This document shows, in pieces, positions 25,405-29,019 of a stretch of DNA of 64,000 nt. The notes under the pieces were generated by a model that ran no database searches, had not been told where the DNA came from, and saw nothing but the letters and a program-made list of their open reading frames with translations. The translations under genes and the position numbers were made by a program. The stretch lies in contig NZ_CP077077.1 in NCBI RefSeq assembly GCF_019139675.1, positions 4,588,001-4,652,000 of the forward strand, given 5' to 3'. This DNA is from Pseudomonas maumuensis (lineage in GTDB: Bacteria; Pseudomonadota; Gammaproteobacteria; Pseudomonadales; Pseudomonadaceae). Position 1 is the stretch's first letter, and each line of letters opens with the position of its first letter.

Positions 25405-26724
25405 ATGGATAACGCCAGCACTCTGCCCACCGGGGCAGCCGTCGCGCCCGCCACGGAAAAGTCCACCGCCAGCCGCCTCAAATCGATCTTCAGTGGTTCC
25501 ATCGGCAACATGGTCGAATGGTACGACTGGTACGTCTACGCCGCGTTCTCGCTGTACTTCGCCAAGGCCTTCTTCCCCGCCGGCGACACCACCGCCCAAC
25601 TGCTCAACACCGCCGCAATCTTCGCCGTGGGCTTCCTCATGCGCCCGATCGGTGGCTGGCTGATGGGCCTGTACGCCGACCGCAAGGGCCGCAAGGCGGC
25701 GCTGATGGCCTCGGTGCTGCTGATGTGCGCAGGCTCGCTGGTCATCGCCCTGACGCCAGGGTACGAGACCATCGGCGTCGCCGCGCCGATCCTGCTGGTC
25801 ATCGCCCGCTTGATGCAGGGCCTGTCGGTAGGCGGCGAGTACGGCACGTCGGCCACCTACCTGAGCGAGATGGCCAGCAAGGAACGCCGCGGCTTCTTCT
25901 CCAGCTTCCAGTACGTCACCCTGATCTCCGGCCAGCTCATCGCCCTGGCAGTGCTGATCGTCCTGCAGAACACGCTGACCACCGAGGAGCTGTACGCCTG
26001 GGGCTGGCGTGTGCCCTTCGTGATCGGCGCGCTGTGCGCGGTAGTCGCCTTGTACCTGCGCCGTGGCATGGAAGAGACCGCCTCCTTCACCAAGAAGGAA
26101 AAGTCCAAAGAGAGTCTGATGCGCACCCTGCTGCGCCATCCCAAGGAACTGATGACCGTGGTCGGCCTGACCATGGGCGGCACCCTGGCCTTCTACACCT
26201 ATACCACCTACATGCAGAAGTACCTGGTCAACACGGTGGGGATGAGCATCAGCGACTCGACCACCATCTCGGCGGCCACACTGTTCCTGTTCATGTGCCT
26301 GCAGCCGGTGATCGGCGGCCTGTCCGACAAGATCGGCCGGCGCCCGATCCTGATCGCCTTCGGTGTGCTCGGCACCCTGTTCACCGTGCCGATCCTCAGC
26401 ACCCTGCACACCATCCAGACCTGGTGGGGCGCGTTCTTCCTGATCATGGCCGCGCTGATCATCGTCAGCGGCTACACCTCGATCAACGCTGTGGTGAAGG
26501 CCGAGCTGTTCCCCACCGAAATCCGCGCCCTGGGCGTCGGCCTGCCGTACGCGCTGACCGTGTCGATCTTCGGCGGCACCGCCGAGTACGTGGCCCTGTG
26601 GTTCAAGAGCATCGGCATGGAGACCGGCTTCTACTGGTACGTCACCGCCTGCATCGCCTGTTCGCTGCTGGTGTACGCAACCATGAAGGACACCAAGCAA
26701 CATTCGCGGATCACCACTGACTGA
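25405..26724 (+). CDS. kgtP: MHS-family MFS transporter, 2-oxoglutarate permease
   Basis: The 439-residue, 12-helix inner-membrane protein is a metabolite:H+ symporter of the KgtP/ShiA type. Loop motifs are IGNMVEWYDWYVYAAFSLYF at the start, LMGLYADRKGRKAAL between helices 2 and 3, and [17 protein letters not shown]. It matches the 2-oxoglutarate permease class in length and wording. The sigma-54 promoter and the upstream DctB/DctD-like pair fit substrate-induced uptake of a C5-dicarboxylate. The ATG at 25405 has GAAGG nine bases upstream. A related MHS transporter (pcaT) is at 53184-54473. Exact substrate needs assay. Confidence 0.85.
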   Translation: MDNASTLPTGAAVAPATEKSTASRLKSIFSGSIGNMVEWYDWYVYAAFSLYFAKAFFPAGDTTAQLLNTAAIFAVGFLMRPIGGWLMGLYADRKGRKAALMASVLLMCAGSLVIALTPGYETIGVAAPILLVIARLMQGLSVGGEYGTSATYLSEMASKERRGFFSSFQYVTLISGQLIALAVLIVLQNTLTTEELYAWGWRVPFVIGALCAVVALYLRRGMEETASFTKKEKSKESLMRTLLRHPKELMTVVGLTMGGTLAFYTYTTYMQKYLVNTVGMSISDSTTISAATLFLFMCLQPVIGGLSDKIGRRPILIAFGVLGTLFTVPILSTLHTIQTWWGAFFLIMAALIIVSGYTSINAVVKAELFPTEIRALGVGLPYALTVSIFGGTAEYVALWFKSIGMETGFYWYVTACIACSLLVYATMKDTKQHSRITTD

Positions 26725-26745
26725 TCACTGCTCACCAAACGTGAG

Positions 26746-26780
26746 AAGGGGCGCTCCGGATGACGGGCCGCCCCTTTTTT
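26746..26780 (+). terminator. Rho-independent terminator after kgtP
   Basis: The arms AAGGGGCG and CGCCCCTT enclose a 15-base loop and end in a six-base T-run. It lies 22 bp after the kgtP stop. Confidence 0.88.
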
Positions 26781-26787
26781 AATGGAT

Positions 26788-26820
26788 TGTGAGCCGAATA
26801 ATAGTGCTATTCGGCTCACA
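26788..26820. repeat. Perfect 13-bp inverted repeat, function unknown
   Basis: TGTGAGCCGAATA and TATTCGGCTCACA are separated by ATAGTGC. It follows the kgtP terminator, has no T-run and does not match the REP families here. It could be an operator or a structured RNA end. Confidence 0.6.
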
Positions 26821-27158
26821 TAATGAGCCGCATCTGAAAATCTCGATCGCGCTACACCTTGCGCACGGGTAACCGGTCGCCATCTCGGGAAAAGCCACCT
26901 ATTCCCTTAATTCCCAATTAACTGCCTAGGCCCAAGCTGAAATGGCCCTGTCACCGGCCTGGCCCTGCGCAAACCGATGGTAACGGCATTGGACGGTGGC
27001 TAGGGCGCCAGCGGCAGTTTCCTGAAGTTACCCGCGCCGAAAAAGATCAATTTAATCGATTTTTATACGTGATTTTTTGCGCTTTTTAATCAATTTAATT
27101 GGCGTAGCATTGAACCCATAGAAACAACAACCCCTAGCAACTCACCGGAGCAACGACC
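26821..27158. other. Long leader or intergenic region before the repeat-protein gene
   Basis: The first 200 bp contain no gene that I recognise. From about 27040 the sequence becomes AT-rich (ATCAATTTAATCGATTTTTA, then TTTTTTGCGCTTTTTAATCA), unlike its neighbours, as expected for a promoter or a nucleoid-protein-bound region. No confident -35/-10 pair can be fixed. CACCGGAGCAACGACC supplies the ribosome-binding site for the gene at 27159. Confidence 0.5.
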
Positions 27159-27524
27159 ATGAAAAACAAACTGATCCTCACCCTTGTCCTCTCTGTTCTG
27201 GCCACTGGCGCCTTCGCCGAAGACGGTTTTGACCGTACCGGCGCCCACACCTTCGCTGCTGTGCAGAGTCAATCGGCCACCTATGCAGAAGATGGCTTCG
27301 ATCGTACCGGCGGCCAGCGGTTCGCCGAAGACGGCTTCGATCGCACCGGCGGCCAGCGTTTCGCCGAAGACGGCTTCGATCGCACCGGCGGCCAACGCTT
27401 CGCTGAAGACGGTTTTGATCGCACCGGCGGCCAGCGCTTCGCGGAGGATGGTTTCGACCGCACCGGTGGCCAGCGCTTCGCGGAGGATGGTTTCGACCGC
27501 ACCAACGGCCACCGCATCAGCTGA
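27159..27524 (+). CDS. Secreted tandem-repeat protein (seven EDGFDRT units)
   Basis: The 121-residue product begins with a signal peptide of 20 residues (MKNKLILTLVLSVLATGAFA), so the mature N terminus would be EDGFDRTG. A first unit and a 10-residue spacer (AAVQSQSATY) are followed by five identical 13-residue units AEDGFDRTGGQRF and a variant last unit ending NGHRIS. EDGFDRT thus occurs seven times. At DNA level the units are 39-bp tandem repeats that differ at silent positions, so the protein sequence is under selection. No cysteine or membrane anchor is present. Short Pseudomonas proteins with similar AEDG/AEGG repeats exist, but I know of no established function. A ribosome-binding site (GGAG) precedes the ATG. 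Confidence 0.85.
   Translation: MKNKLILTLVLSVLATGAFAEDGFDRTGAHTFAAVQSQSATYAEDGFDRTGGQRFAEDGFDRTGGQRFAEDGFDRTGGQRFAEDGFDRTGGQRFAEDGFDRTGGQRFAEDGFDRTNGHRIS
27285..27519 (+). repeat. 39-bp coding tandem repeats
   Basis: Six consecutive in-frame 39-bp units encode AEDGFDRT-type peptides, the last one diverged at its end. The last two share a nearly identical version of the unit (CGGAGGATGGTTTCGACCGC), pointing to recent duplication. There are no non-repeated spacers, so this is not a CRISPR array. Confidence 0.9.
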
Positions 27525-27542
27525 TTGCTGATGCGCGCTACC

Positions 27543-27570
27543 AGCCCGGCTTTGGCCGGGCTTGATCATT
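27543..27570 (+). terminator. Probable terminator of the repeat-protein gene
   Basis: AGCCCGGC and GCCGGGCT form an 8-bp stem with a 4-base loop, followed by TGATCATTTT. The T-run is delayed, so strength is moderate. Confidence 0.6.
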
Positions 27571-27642
27571 TTCAGTTGAGCCAAGCCTTGGCACACTAGG
27601 CGCCTCGTCCCCCACCAGGAAGGGCCTCACGGCCTTGCGCAG

Positions 27643-28248
27643 ATGTACTACTACGAACCCGCCAAAGGCCACGGCCTGCCCCACGACCCGTTCAACGCCA
27701 TCGTCGGCCCACGGCCCATCGGCTGGATCTCCAGCCACGACCGCGAAGGCCGCTTGAATTTGGCGCCCTACAGCTTCTTCAACGCCTTCAACTACATCCC
27801 ACCGATCATCGGTTTCTGCAGCGTCGGGCGCAAAGACAGCCTGAACAACATCGAGCAGACCGGCGAGTTCGTCTGGAACCTGGCTACCCGACCGCTGGCC
27901 GAGCAGATGAACCAGAGCTGTGCCGCGGTGGCGGCAGATATCGACGAGTTCGCGCTCAGTGGCCTGACCCCGGCCATGTCCAACGTGGTCAAGGTGCCAC
28001 GCGTGGGCGAGAGCCCGGTGAGCTTCGAATGCAAGGTCAGCCAGATCGTCCAGCTCAAGCGCGCCGACCAGGAGGTGGTTCCCAGCTGGCTGATCCTCGG
28101 AGAGGTAGTGGCGGTACACATTGCAGAACACCTGCTCAAGGACGGCATCTACGACACCGCCGCCGCCGAGCCTATCCTGCGTGGCGGCGGCCCAGCCGAC
28201 TACTTTGCGCTGGGCGAGCTGTTCAAGATGGCCCGGCCGCAAGCCTGA
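27643..28248 (+). CDS. Flavin reductase-like domain protein
   Basis: The 201-residue protein has the FMN-binding split-barrel fold of the DIM6/NTAB group. An N-terminal HDPFNAIVGPRPIGWISS is followed by NLAPYSFFNAFNYIPPIIGF and NIEQTGEFVWNLAT, which are the usual FMN contacts. Members bind FMN and may act as flavin reductases or esterase-like flavoproteins. The substrate is unknown. It is convergent with the small gene at 28249, and the two stop codons are adjacent (28248/28249). A weak AGGAAGGG lies well upstream, and the ATG at 27643 begins directly at the fold. Confidence 0.85.
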   Translation: MYYYEPAKGHGLPHDPFNAIVGPRPIGWISSHDREGRLNLAPYSFFNAFNYIPPIIGFCSVGRKDSLNNIEQTGEFVWNLATRPLAEQMNQSCAAVAADIDEFALSGLTPAMSNVVKVPRVGESPVSFECKVSQIVQLKRADQEVVPSWLILGEVVAVHIAEHLLKDGIYDTAAAEPILRGGGPADYFALGELFKMARPQA

Positions 28249-28482
28249 TCAGAAGATCAACTCGCCTTCCTCGCCCACACCCTGCAGGCGTTCGAGTTCA
28301 GCACAAGCGGCCTCGTCGGCCGCGATCGCCGACTGGAACACCTGCCCGTCGAGCACTTTGTGAAAGCGCGGCGCACCGCCCATGCCCAGGGCCTTCACGG
28401 CGATCGCCGCGTGGTAGCCGCCGCCTTGCACCGGGACCATCGCCGAGACCGCTTCGAAGTGGGGGAATTCTCTACGTGCCAT
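28249..28482 (-). CDS. Small conserved hypothetical protein (77 aa)
   Basis: This compact protein starts MARREFPHFEAVSAMVPVQG and ends GEEGELIF, with no signal peptide or membrane segment. It has the look of a conserved Pseudomonas hypothetical, but I know no function. GGAG seven bases before the ATG supports translation. It lies downstream of the monooxygenase-like gene on the same strand, 42 bp away, and may share its transcript. Confidence 0.65.
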   Translation of the reverse strand: MARREFPHFEAVSAMVPVQGGGYHAAIAVKALGMGGAPRFHKVLDGQVFQSAIAADEAACAELERLQGVGEEGELIF

Positions 28483-28524
28483 GCTGCACTCCGCCTGAAT
28501 GATGTAGGGGCGGCATTCTACACA

Positions 28525-28818
28525 TCAGGCGAAGGTATGCAGGTCCAGGCTGCTGACCACCTGCGCCTGAACCAGCTCGCCAAACACCTCCAGGGTGGGC
28601 GAGGCGAAATAGCCGCTCATCGCCTGCTGGTCGCTCCAGCTGCCGCTGAGCAGCCACAGATCGGCATCGACCTGCGAACGCTGCACACTGAAGCTCAGGC
28701 AGCCGGGCGCCCGCAGCGACGGCTCCAGCAGGTCGCGCAGACGCATGCCGAGTTCCGCCGAACGACCGTTGCTGGCGCGGATGAAAGCCAGGTGAGTGAC
28801 CGGTTGAGGCTGGGTCAT
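28525..28818 (-). CDS. ABM-domain (antibiotic biosynthesis monooxygenase-like) protein
   Basis: The 97-residue product matches the small dimeric ferredoxin-like ABM fold (VTHLAFIRASNGRSAELGMRL, then LWLLSGSWSDQQAMSGYFAS). Such proteins are cofactor-free quinone or hydroxyanthrone monooxygenases or stress-linked relatives, so activity cannot be assigned. AAGGAG eight bases before the ATG at 28818 fixes the start. A longer frame would run through the palindrome. The AraC gene at 29020 is divergent and a likely regulator. Confidence 0.8.
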   Translation of the reverse strand: MTQPQPVTHLAFIRASNGRSAELGMRLRDLLEPSLRAPGCLSFSVQRSQVDADLWLLSGSWSDQQAMSGYFASPTLEVFGELVQAQVVSSLDLHTFA

Positions 28819-28908
28819 GAACGATCTCCTTGAAGCGCTACGGACGGGAAAACAGGCTGCCAAGATTAGGGCCCGCCCCTCGCGCGACGTTAGGCCATTA
28901 CTGCCGAG

Positions 28909-28948
28909 CGATTGCCTGATCCTGCCGCGCGACAGGATCAGGCAATCG
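28909..28948. promoter_or_regulatory. Perfect 16-bp inverted repeat between divergent genes
   Basis: CGATTGCCTGATCCTG (28909-28924) and its exact complement at 28933-28948 are separated by CCGCGCGA. It sits 90 bp before the ABM gene and 71 bp before the AraC regulator. It differs from the REP families and has no T-run. An operator or a recombination relic are the main possibilities. Confidence 0.6.
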
Positions 28949-29019
28949 AACGACAGCATTCGACTAGCGCCCGACATTGCCCATACCTATGCTGGCCCGG
29001 TCAGTAGAGGAACCACGCC

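Follow-up and report, generated by a model that had tools for sequence, protein, structure and literature searches.

An exported tandem-repeat protein of Pseudomonas shares a promoter element with azoR and yqjG and most likely belongs to a quinone/electrophile stress regulon

Within the window, by which we mean the whole 64,000-nucleotide stretch of Pseudomonas maumuensis DNA that was analysed, lies a short gene whose product is built largely from copies of one small unit. What would such a protein do, and does it act whole or is it cut into many peptides, as the original prediction had suggested? The gene is an ORF for 121 aa on the plus strand (27159..27524, with the ATG at 27159 and the stop codon ending at 27524), preceded by the Shine-Dalgarno sequence GGAG at 27147..27150 (+). 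As first predicted, a signal peptide of 20 residues (MKNKLILTLVLSVLATGAFA, 27159..27218, +; putatively a Sec signal, and alike in the listed relatives) is followed by seven EDGFDRT units, five of them identical 13-mers. Unit 1 (AEDGFDRTGAHTF), whose A is the final residue of the signal peptide, is joined to a Q/S-rich spacer of 10 residues (together 27216..27284, +), units 2 to 6 are the identical copies of AEDGFDRTGGQRF (27285..27479, +), and unit 7 (AEDGFDRTNGHRI), which like unit 1 deviates from these copies, forms with the C-terminus the segment AEDGFDRTNGHRIS (27480..27521, +). An AHRIS/GHRIS-like C-terminal end is common among putida-group orthologues. In the DNA, Tandem Repeats Finder placed the array at 27288-27515 with a period of 39 bp, 5.8 copies and 89% matches.

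Pairwise comparison of the five identical units gave pS = 0.574 per silent site and pN = 0, the mark of purifying selection on the peptide. An antisense ORF of 168 codons (27090-27596, minus strand) was rejected as a gene, as its repeat copies differ in sequence; because the antisense copies differ, it is the plus frame of the array that is coding and under selection. The antisense frame across the array is also open in relatives (for example L007), which is explained by the composition of the sense repeats.

To place the protein among its relatives we searched proteins and genomes. There were 182 relatives at E <= 10, and the organisms among the 120 matches listed were Pseudomonas, Stutzerimonas and one Pantoea-labelled record. 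Members of the family turned up in 284 of the 298 Pseudomonas genomes that were sampled (E <= 0.001; match counts per genome refer to pieces, not genes), and in an order-level sample 3 of 115 genomes matched, the source genome included, all of one bacterial family. Two loci and one protein labelled Paucimonas or Pantoea (L080, L109 and P0037) carry the gene and probably come from mislabelled genomes; L080 and L109 show the Pseudomonas gene order around it.

Unit statistics were drawn from the window gene and the best 80 of 103 relatives, and are thereby weighted to close orthologues; two of the 80 loci (L116 and L125) are truncated by contig ends. The number of units per gene ranged from 3 to 16 in these 81 genes, with 5 to 7 in 58 of them, and the 3-unit gene ends at a contig edge. 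Among the extremes in other genomes, one member reaches 244 residues and 16 units, and in one set (L224, G028:C5) three paralogues in tandem measure 70, 106 and 322 residues, the longest showing, by eye, a three-unit higher-order repeat. In one metagenomic record (P0093) the start of the neighboring flavin reductase is fused to a repeat protein, probably as an assembly chimera.

Among 368 units of 13 residues, D3 and G4 were invariant, T8 was kept in 99.7%, D6 in 98.4%, A1 in 96.2%, E2 and R7 in 93.8% each and F5 in 91.8%, while positions 9 to 13 varied. The octapeptide core AEDGFDRT is therefore nearly invariant, with an identity of 0.95 within a gene and 0.94 between genes and pN/pS values of 0.062 and 0.052, respectively. 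For the linkers, identity was 0.917 within a gene as against 0.568 between genes, and pN/pS was 0.164 within and 0.671 between. Judged from these ratios, the uniformity of the linkers inside a gene exceeds what silent-site divergence alone would give. We infer that gene conversion accounts for part of it, and the rest would reflect common selection on all units, whether through the same partner or through mutual contacts. The octapeptide thus stays fixed while the linkers, which differ from species to species, change together within any one gene. Several elements of the original prediction hold up on these data, namely that the protein is secreted (as its predicted signal peptide and those of its relatives indicate), that silent variation underlies a conserved peptide, that the copy number changes, and that related AEDG and AEGG proteins occur in Pseudomonas, 9 of 217 fetched relatives carrying both types of unit.

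Known families offered little guidance. The window protein had no Pfam or NCBIfam match above cut-off, a PDB profile search gave a best E of 0.68 and no relative, and Rfam at gathering thresholds gave no match in 26000-29000. A Pfam HA2_N match on the relative P0113 (23.9 bits, cut-off 21) seems to arise by chance from the spacing of the repeats and was set aside. Several relatives bear the database names “heme utilization protein” or “phage infection protein”. We regard both names as unsupported, given that the window protein has neither a Pfam match over cut-off nor a PDB relative, and our literature searches found no basis for them: the passage seen in PMC7466150 concerns a different protein, and the part of PMC7921472 available to us reports a P. 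fragi “heme utilization protein” that is down in one biofilm comparison and could not be linked to the repeat family. Six short peptide strings from the units were absent from the literature searched. As far as that literature shows (most subscription journals lay outside its scope), the repeat family as such and the promoter link to azoR and yqjG described below are new, while the partial coverage of the unit by the PtrA N-terminal model and the existence of LysR quinone regulons are already known.

The mature protein has 101 residues (11.1 kDa, pI 4.6, GRAVY -1.20), including 14 Asp, 7 Glu, 13 Arg, 13 Phe, 19 Gly and 2 His; Cys, Lys, Leu, Met, Pro and Trp do not occur. AlphaFold, run with a shallow 43-sequence alignment of repeats, returned no confident fold (pLDDT 48.5, pTM 0.15); the sole helix in the model is the signal peptide and there are a few short strands of low confidence. 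A confident repeated fold, such as a solenoid or a calcium-binding repeat, did not appear in this model, which is weak evidence, as AlphaFold with a shallow repeat alignment can miss a repeat fold. The mature protein is likely to be disordered, and the model lends no support to a solenoid.

The gene neighborhood, read from the calls of a simple ORF picker, is conserved. The repeat gene sits between an MFS transporter (cluster present in 77 of 81 loci) and a flavin-reductase-like gene (27643..28248, +, PF01613; cluster in 74 of 81 loci), which is followed by an AraC regulator (75 of 81). These three were the neighbors with a Pfam identity, and no peptidase or exporter partner was seen among them. 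Being adjacent and conserved, the flavin reductase gene may be functionally linked to the repeat gene or form an operon with it. At least 42 of 80 relatives have a divergent gene for a DUF347 membrane protein just upstream, between the MFS and repeat genes (for example L050:6906-7793); it is absent upstream of the repeat gene in the window. Three relatives (L114, L123 and L126) have a different context and a different promoter.

The strongest clue to function came from the promoter, which lies outside the region covered by the original prediction. The upstream regions of the orthologues have a long conserved block in common, a bipartite element with an inverted-repeat LysR-type box in its distal part and, 30 bp on, TTTGCGCTTTTTAATC. 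In the window the T-N11-A box is ATCAATTTAATCGAT (27046..27060, +), which agrees with the consensus ATCGAWTNAWTCGAT at 13 of 14 scored positions; the exact palindrome has no match in this genome, the window box being off at that one position. The second conserved element, TTTGCGCTTTTTAATCA (27076..27092, +), came out of the comparison of orthologue upstream regions and of genome pattern searches and is presumed to be an activator site or -35 region. A putative -10-like TAGCAT at 27105..27110 (+) was picked by eye within the conserved GGCGTAGCATT. Allowing at most 2 mismatches, 76 of 81 orthologue loci have the element, and in 75 of these 76 genes exactly 30 bp separate the start of the box from the TTTGCGC that follows.

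Searching the source genome with the 17-mer (<=3 mismatches) gave five places, compared to one for the reversed control: the repeat gene, the regions upstream of azoR and yqjG, and two places that are seemingly ORF-internal. The azoR and yqjG promoters fit this loose pattern only, with 3 mismatches, and the strict bipartite pattern is found at the repeat gene alone. A box lies 30 bp away in all three genes, with scores of 13 (repeat gene), 10 (azoR) and 11 (yqjG) out of 14; of 2000 shuffles, 0, 2 and 0, respectively, reached these scores at that place. The YqjG of this genome is 58% identical to E. coli YqjG. Its AzoR matches Pfam Flavodoxin_2 with 187.6 bits and scored at best E 1.7e-36 and 126 bits against azoreductase models, where the model cut-off of 188 was not reached.

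The same association recurred across Pseudomonas. With at most 2 mismatches, the 17-mer gave 129 hits in 52 of 59 genomes, compared to 15 for the reversed control. We read 69 of the about 129 places listed, 40 of them hand-picked, and a script labelled them as repeat family (16), azoR (17), yqjG (7) and other (29); by eye, four of the last (L153, L164, L185 and L200) are azoR. With the 17-mer alone, 25 of the 69 loci belong to none of the three genes and some look ORF-internal. The box was present at 30 bp in all 40 labelled loci and reached a score of at least 11 in 16/16 repeat-family, 13/17 azoR and 7/7 yqjG loci, so that the azoR boxes are the weaker ones. Requiring the bipartite pattern (<=1 mismatch) gave matches in 133 of 149 Pseudomonas genomes, with none for the reversed control in all 149. 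In 70 loci, part of the places listed (40 hand-picked, and the last few partly for unusual-looking sequence), the gene that follows was azoR in 29, yqjG in 19, a repeat-family gene in 19 and another gene in 3. One of these three (L248) has an intact regulon promoter ahead of a decayed azoR. We are confident that the repeat gene belongs to one regulon with azoR and yqjG.

Which protein would act on this element? A LysR-type gene (L205:4584-5507, minus) lies near azoR in the source genome with one small ORF between them, and each of the 17 azoR loci that the script had labelled has a homologue with 87-92% identity to it. The intervening ORF (L205:5498-5872) encodes a small predicted exported protein without a Pfam match. 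We take PA0784/PA0785 to be the P. aeruginosa counterparts of the LysR-azoR pair; our literature search found no paper naming both. When E. coli YhaJ was used as the query, the azoR-adjacent LysR gene was the best match in the source genome (E 7.7e-26; the next was 1.7e-18), with 29% identity over 257 residues. On re-check, a clear YhaJ orthology was weakened by near-equal scores against PunR: BLASTP gave 103 bits for E. coli PunR and 99.8 for YhaJ and phmmer gave 90.7 and 93.6, respectively, and the best NCBIfam model was PunR at 121.7 bits, far below its cut-off of 345. By sequence the protein would best be called a YhaJ/PunR-like regulator, about equally close to both, and it is most likely the activator of azoR, yqjG and the repeat gene.

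According to the part of PMC5031710 available to us, YhaJ regulates yqjF, yhaK, yhhW, ygiD and ybiJ, is linked to a hydroquinone response, responds to quinol-like compounds and has the proposed box T-N11-A with TCA-N7-TGA. The consensus that we scored in Pseudomonas promoters holds TCG-N7-CGA. In E. coli K-12, yqjG lies near yhaJ and next to yqjF. Judging from the partner enzymes and from E. coli YhaJ, the inducers of the Pseudomonas regulon are probably of the quinone type. A published experiment provides a lead here. In P. fluorescens In5 confronted with Rhizoctonia solani, the accessible text of PMC5557065 lists an azoreductase as induced 142x and YqjG 23.5x, along with a pirin, a quercetin dioxygenase, LigB, DoxX and, at 32x, a “Phage infection protein”. 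Co-induced with these were several small hypothetical proteins, all but one of which the authors predict to be secreted. UniRef gives the name “Phage infection protein” to our relative P0113 as well. The In5 genes were not matched by sequence to the repeat family, and we treat the induction as a lead rather than as proof.

These observations are most likely explained by a disordered repeat protein that the cell exports as part of a quinone/electrophile stress regulon. Four features read from the DNA and its relatives underlie this: the export signal, the near-invariant octapeptide, the common bipartite promoter and the LysR gene conserved beside azoR. We moderately favor the more specific reading that it is an envelope stress protein with a protective role, co-induced with AzoR and YqjG by the LysR regulator. 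Quinone- or hydroquinone-type aromatics would reach the cytosol and the LysR regulator, most likely the azoR-adjacent one, would turn on AzoR, YqjG and the repeat protein. The AzoR and YqjG families reduce quinones and glutathionyl-hydroquinones inside the cell. The repeat protein would pass via Sec to the periplasm or beyond, where its AEDGFDRT cores, strung along a soluble chain, might each bind weakly and to the same degree; such a chain could keep redox-cycling aromatics, free or complexed with metal, from reaching the envelope, and the number of units would set its capacity. This multivalent buffering as the means of protection is a conjecture, and we hold it with considerable reserve. 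A wider form of it, in which the exported disordered repeat proteins found throughout Pseudomonas are tunable multivalent buffers for quinones, polyphenols or complexes of these with metals, binding them through AEDGFDRT and gaining capacity with the number of units, is likewise doubtful speculation. The polyphenol-binding proline-rich proteins of saliva are an analogy in principle. Covalent trapping of quinones is unlikely, given that Cys, Lys and Met are all missing from the core.

Another possibility is that the protein is a precursor which an envelope protease cuts between units, freeing near-identical 13-mers as signals or antimicrobials. The protein is secreted and its copy number changes, and the 13-mer is nearly uniform in each gene despite silent divergence, as the linker pN/pS values given above indicate, as if it met one species-specific partner. 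Antifungal peptides were also raised by the In5 authors for their small secreted proteins, in the available part of PMC5557065. The junctions between units are where this explanation runs into difficulty. A resemblance of the signal cleavage site to these junctions had been part of the original prediction, and it stands for the minority that have a small residue (T, A, S or G) at -3 (120 of 438); 309 of 438 have R or K there, unlike signal peptidase sites, and the signal cleavage site itself has A or T at -3 in 77 of the 77 loci scored (of 80). The unit-start Ala is also kept where the first unit sits inside the mature protein (for example P0052), and because such relatives retain it, the Ala belongs to the unit. 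No dedicated protease or exporter was recognised beside the gene, and its promoter partners are detoxification enzymes. On account of the junctions, the neighbors and the regulon, we do not favor cutting into many peptides and consider a precursor unlikely. A surface, matrix or adhesion protein whose copy number tunes stickiness is highly improbable. It would account for secretion, for repetitiveness, for a variable unit number and for Phe/Arg-rich units, but the protein is short, no anchor is seen in its sequence, and the promoter is common to detoxification enzymes.

It could also be speculated that the protein serves in metal stress, its PtrA-like units binding Cu(II) or Fe(III) via carboxylates, and that a quinone regulon calls on it because catechol-metal complexes redox-cycle. 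Kinship with PtrA speaks for this explanation. A paralogue in the source genome (5070378-5070833, L038:1501-1956) has seven AEGG units of the AEGGSDRLIERNNR type and passes the PtrA N-terminal domain model NF041599 with 59.1 bits (cut-off 31). The same genome has single-unit genes at 2668300 and 4447453, and the latter, a PtrA-like gene (L043, L208), is transcribed divergently from the gene for a heavy-metal response regulator (TIGR01387, 348 bits, cut-off 279). The nine relatives with both unit types combine AEGGxDR (PtrA-type) with AEDG-type units, and the accessible part of a review calls PtrA a periplasmic, CopRS-controlled copper storage protein (PMC8872213). On the other hand, the absence of Cys and Met and the presence of only 2 His in the mature protein argue against a soft-metal site, and the window protein scored 15.6 bits (E 0.011) against NF041599, its residues 4-44 (signal peptide and first unit) aligning with profile positions 6-45. 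All four mixed proteins scanned also fell below the cut-off (P0009 20.4, P0018 25.2, P0080 22.7 and P0107 17.4 bits). PA2808 was not observed in a copper proteome, as far as the available part of that study goes (PMC6444534). We consider a metal-stress role possible at low probability. As the L038 paralogue matches neither the loose nor the strict promoter pattern, the repeat module is not bound to this regulon alone. This paralogue adjoins a TetR-family gene (FabR-like, below cut-off), and by eye its upstream region resembles those of L114 and L123.

The preferred reading, an exported, disordered protein of a quinone/electrophile stress regulon, can be set beside three known systems. The family it concerns is carried by nearly all Pseudomonas genomes sampled, under no name or under unsupported ones, and the promoter gives it a testable context; quinone and electrophile stress matters to bacteria that live with plant phenolics, fungi and lignin products. 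The E. coli YhaJ regulon is similar in its LysR protein (here the putative activator), its T-N11-A inverted box and its quinol-like inducers (here presumed), and the fixed-spacing box in a promoter that the repeat gene has in common with a quinone and a hydroquinone reductase gene, azoR and yqjG, fits a YhaJ-like regulon. It differs in its targets: those in Pseudomonas are azoR, yqjG and the repeat protein, and no E. coli counterpart of the last was seen in the material read.

Hydrophilins are defined by more than 6% Gly and a hydrophilicity index above 1, and the mature protein falls within these bounds (Gly 19/101, GRAVY -1.20). Like hydrophilins and LEA-like stress proteins it is Gly-rich, very hydrophilic and predicted to be disordered, with a short tandem motif. 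In contrast to them it is exported and its octapeptide is nearly fixed, and Pfam gave no sequence relation.

PtrA (PA2808) is likewise exported, with a signal peptide followed by A-E-G/D-G-x-D/E-R, the pattern that the window protein also shows at its mature N-terminus, and the mixed members carry both types of unit. Where PtrA has a metal two-component neighbor, the window gene has a LysR-type box, and its product is set apart by seven units and an FDRT core. The AEDG and AEGG motifs are most readily understood as two forms of a single exported unit, and the PtrA motif, known from copper tolerance, becomes connected with a more general repeat unit of exported proteins.
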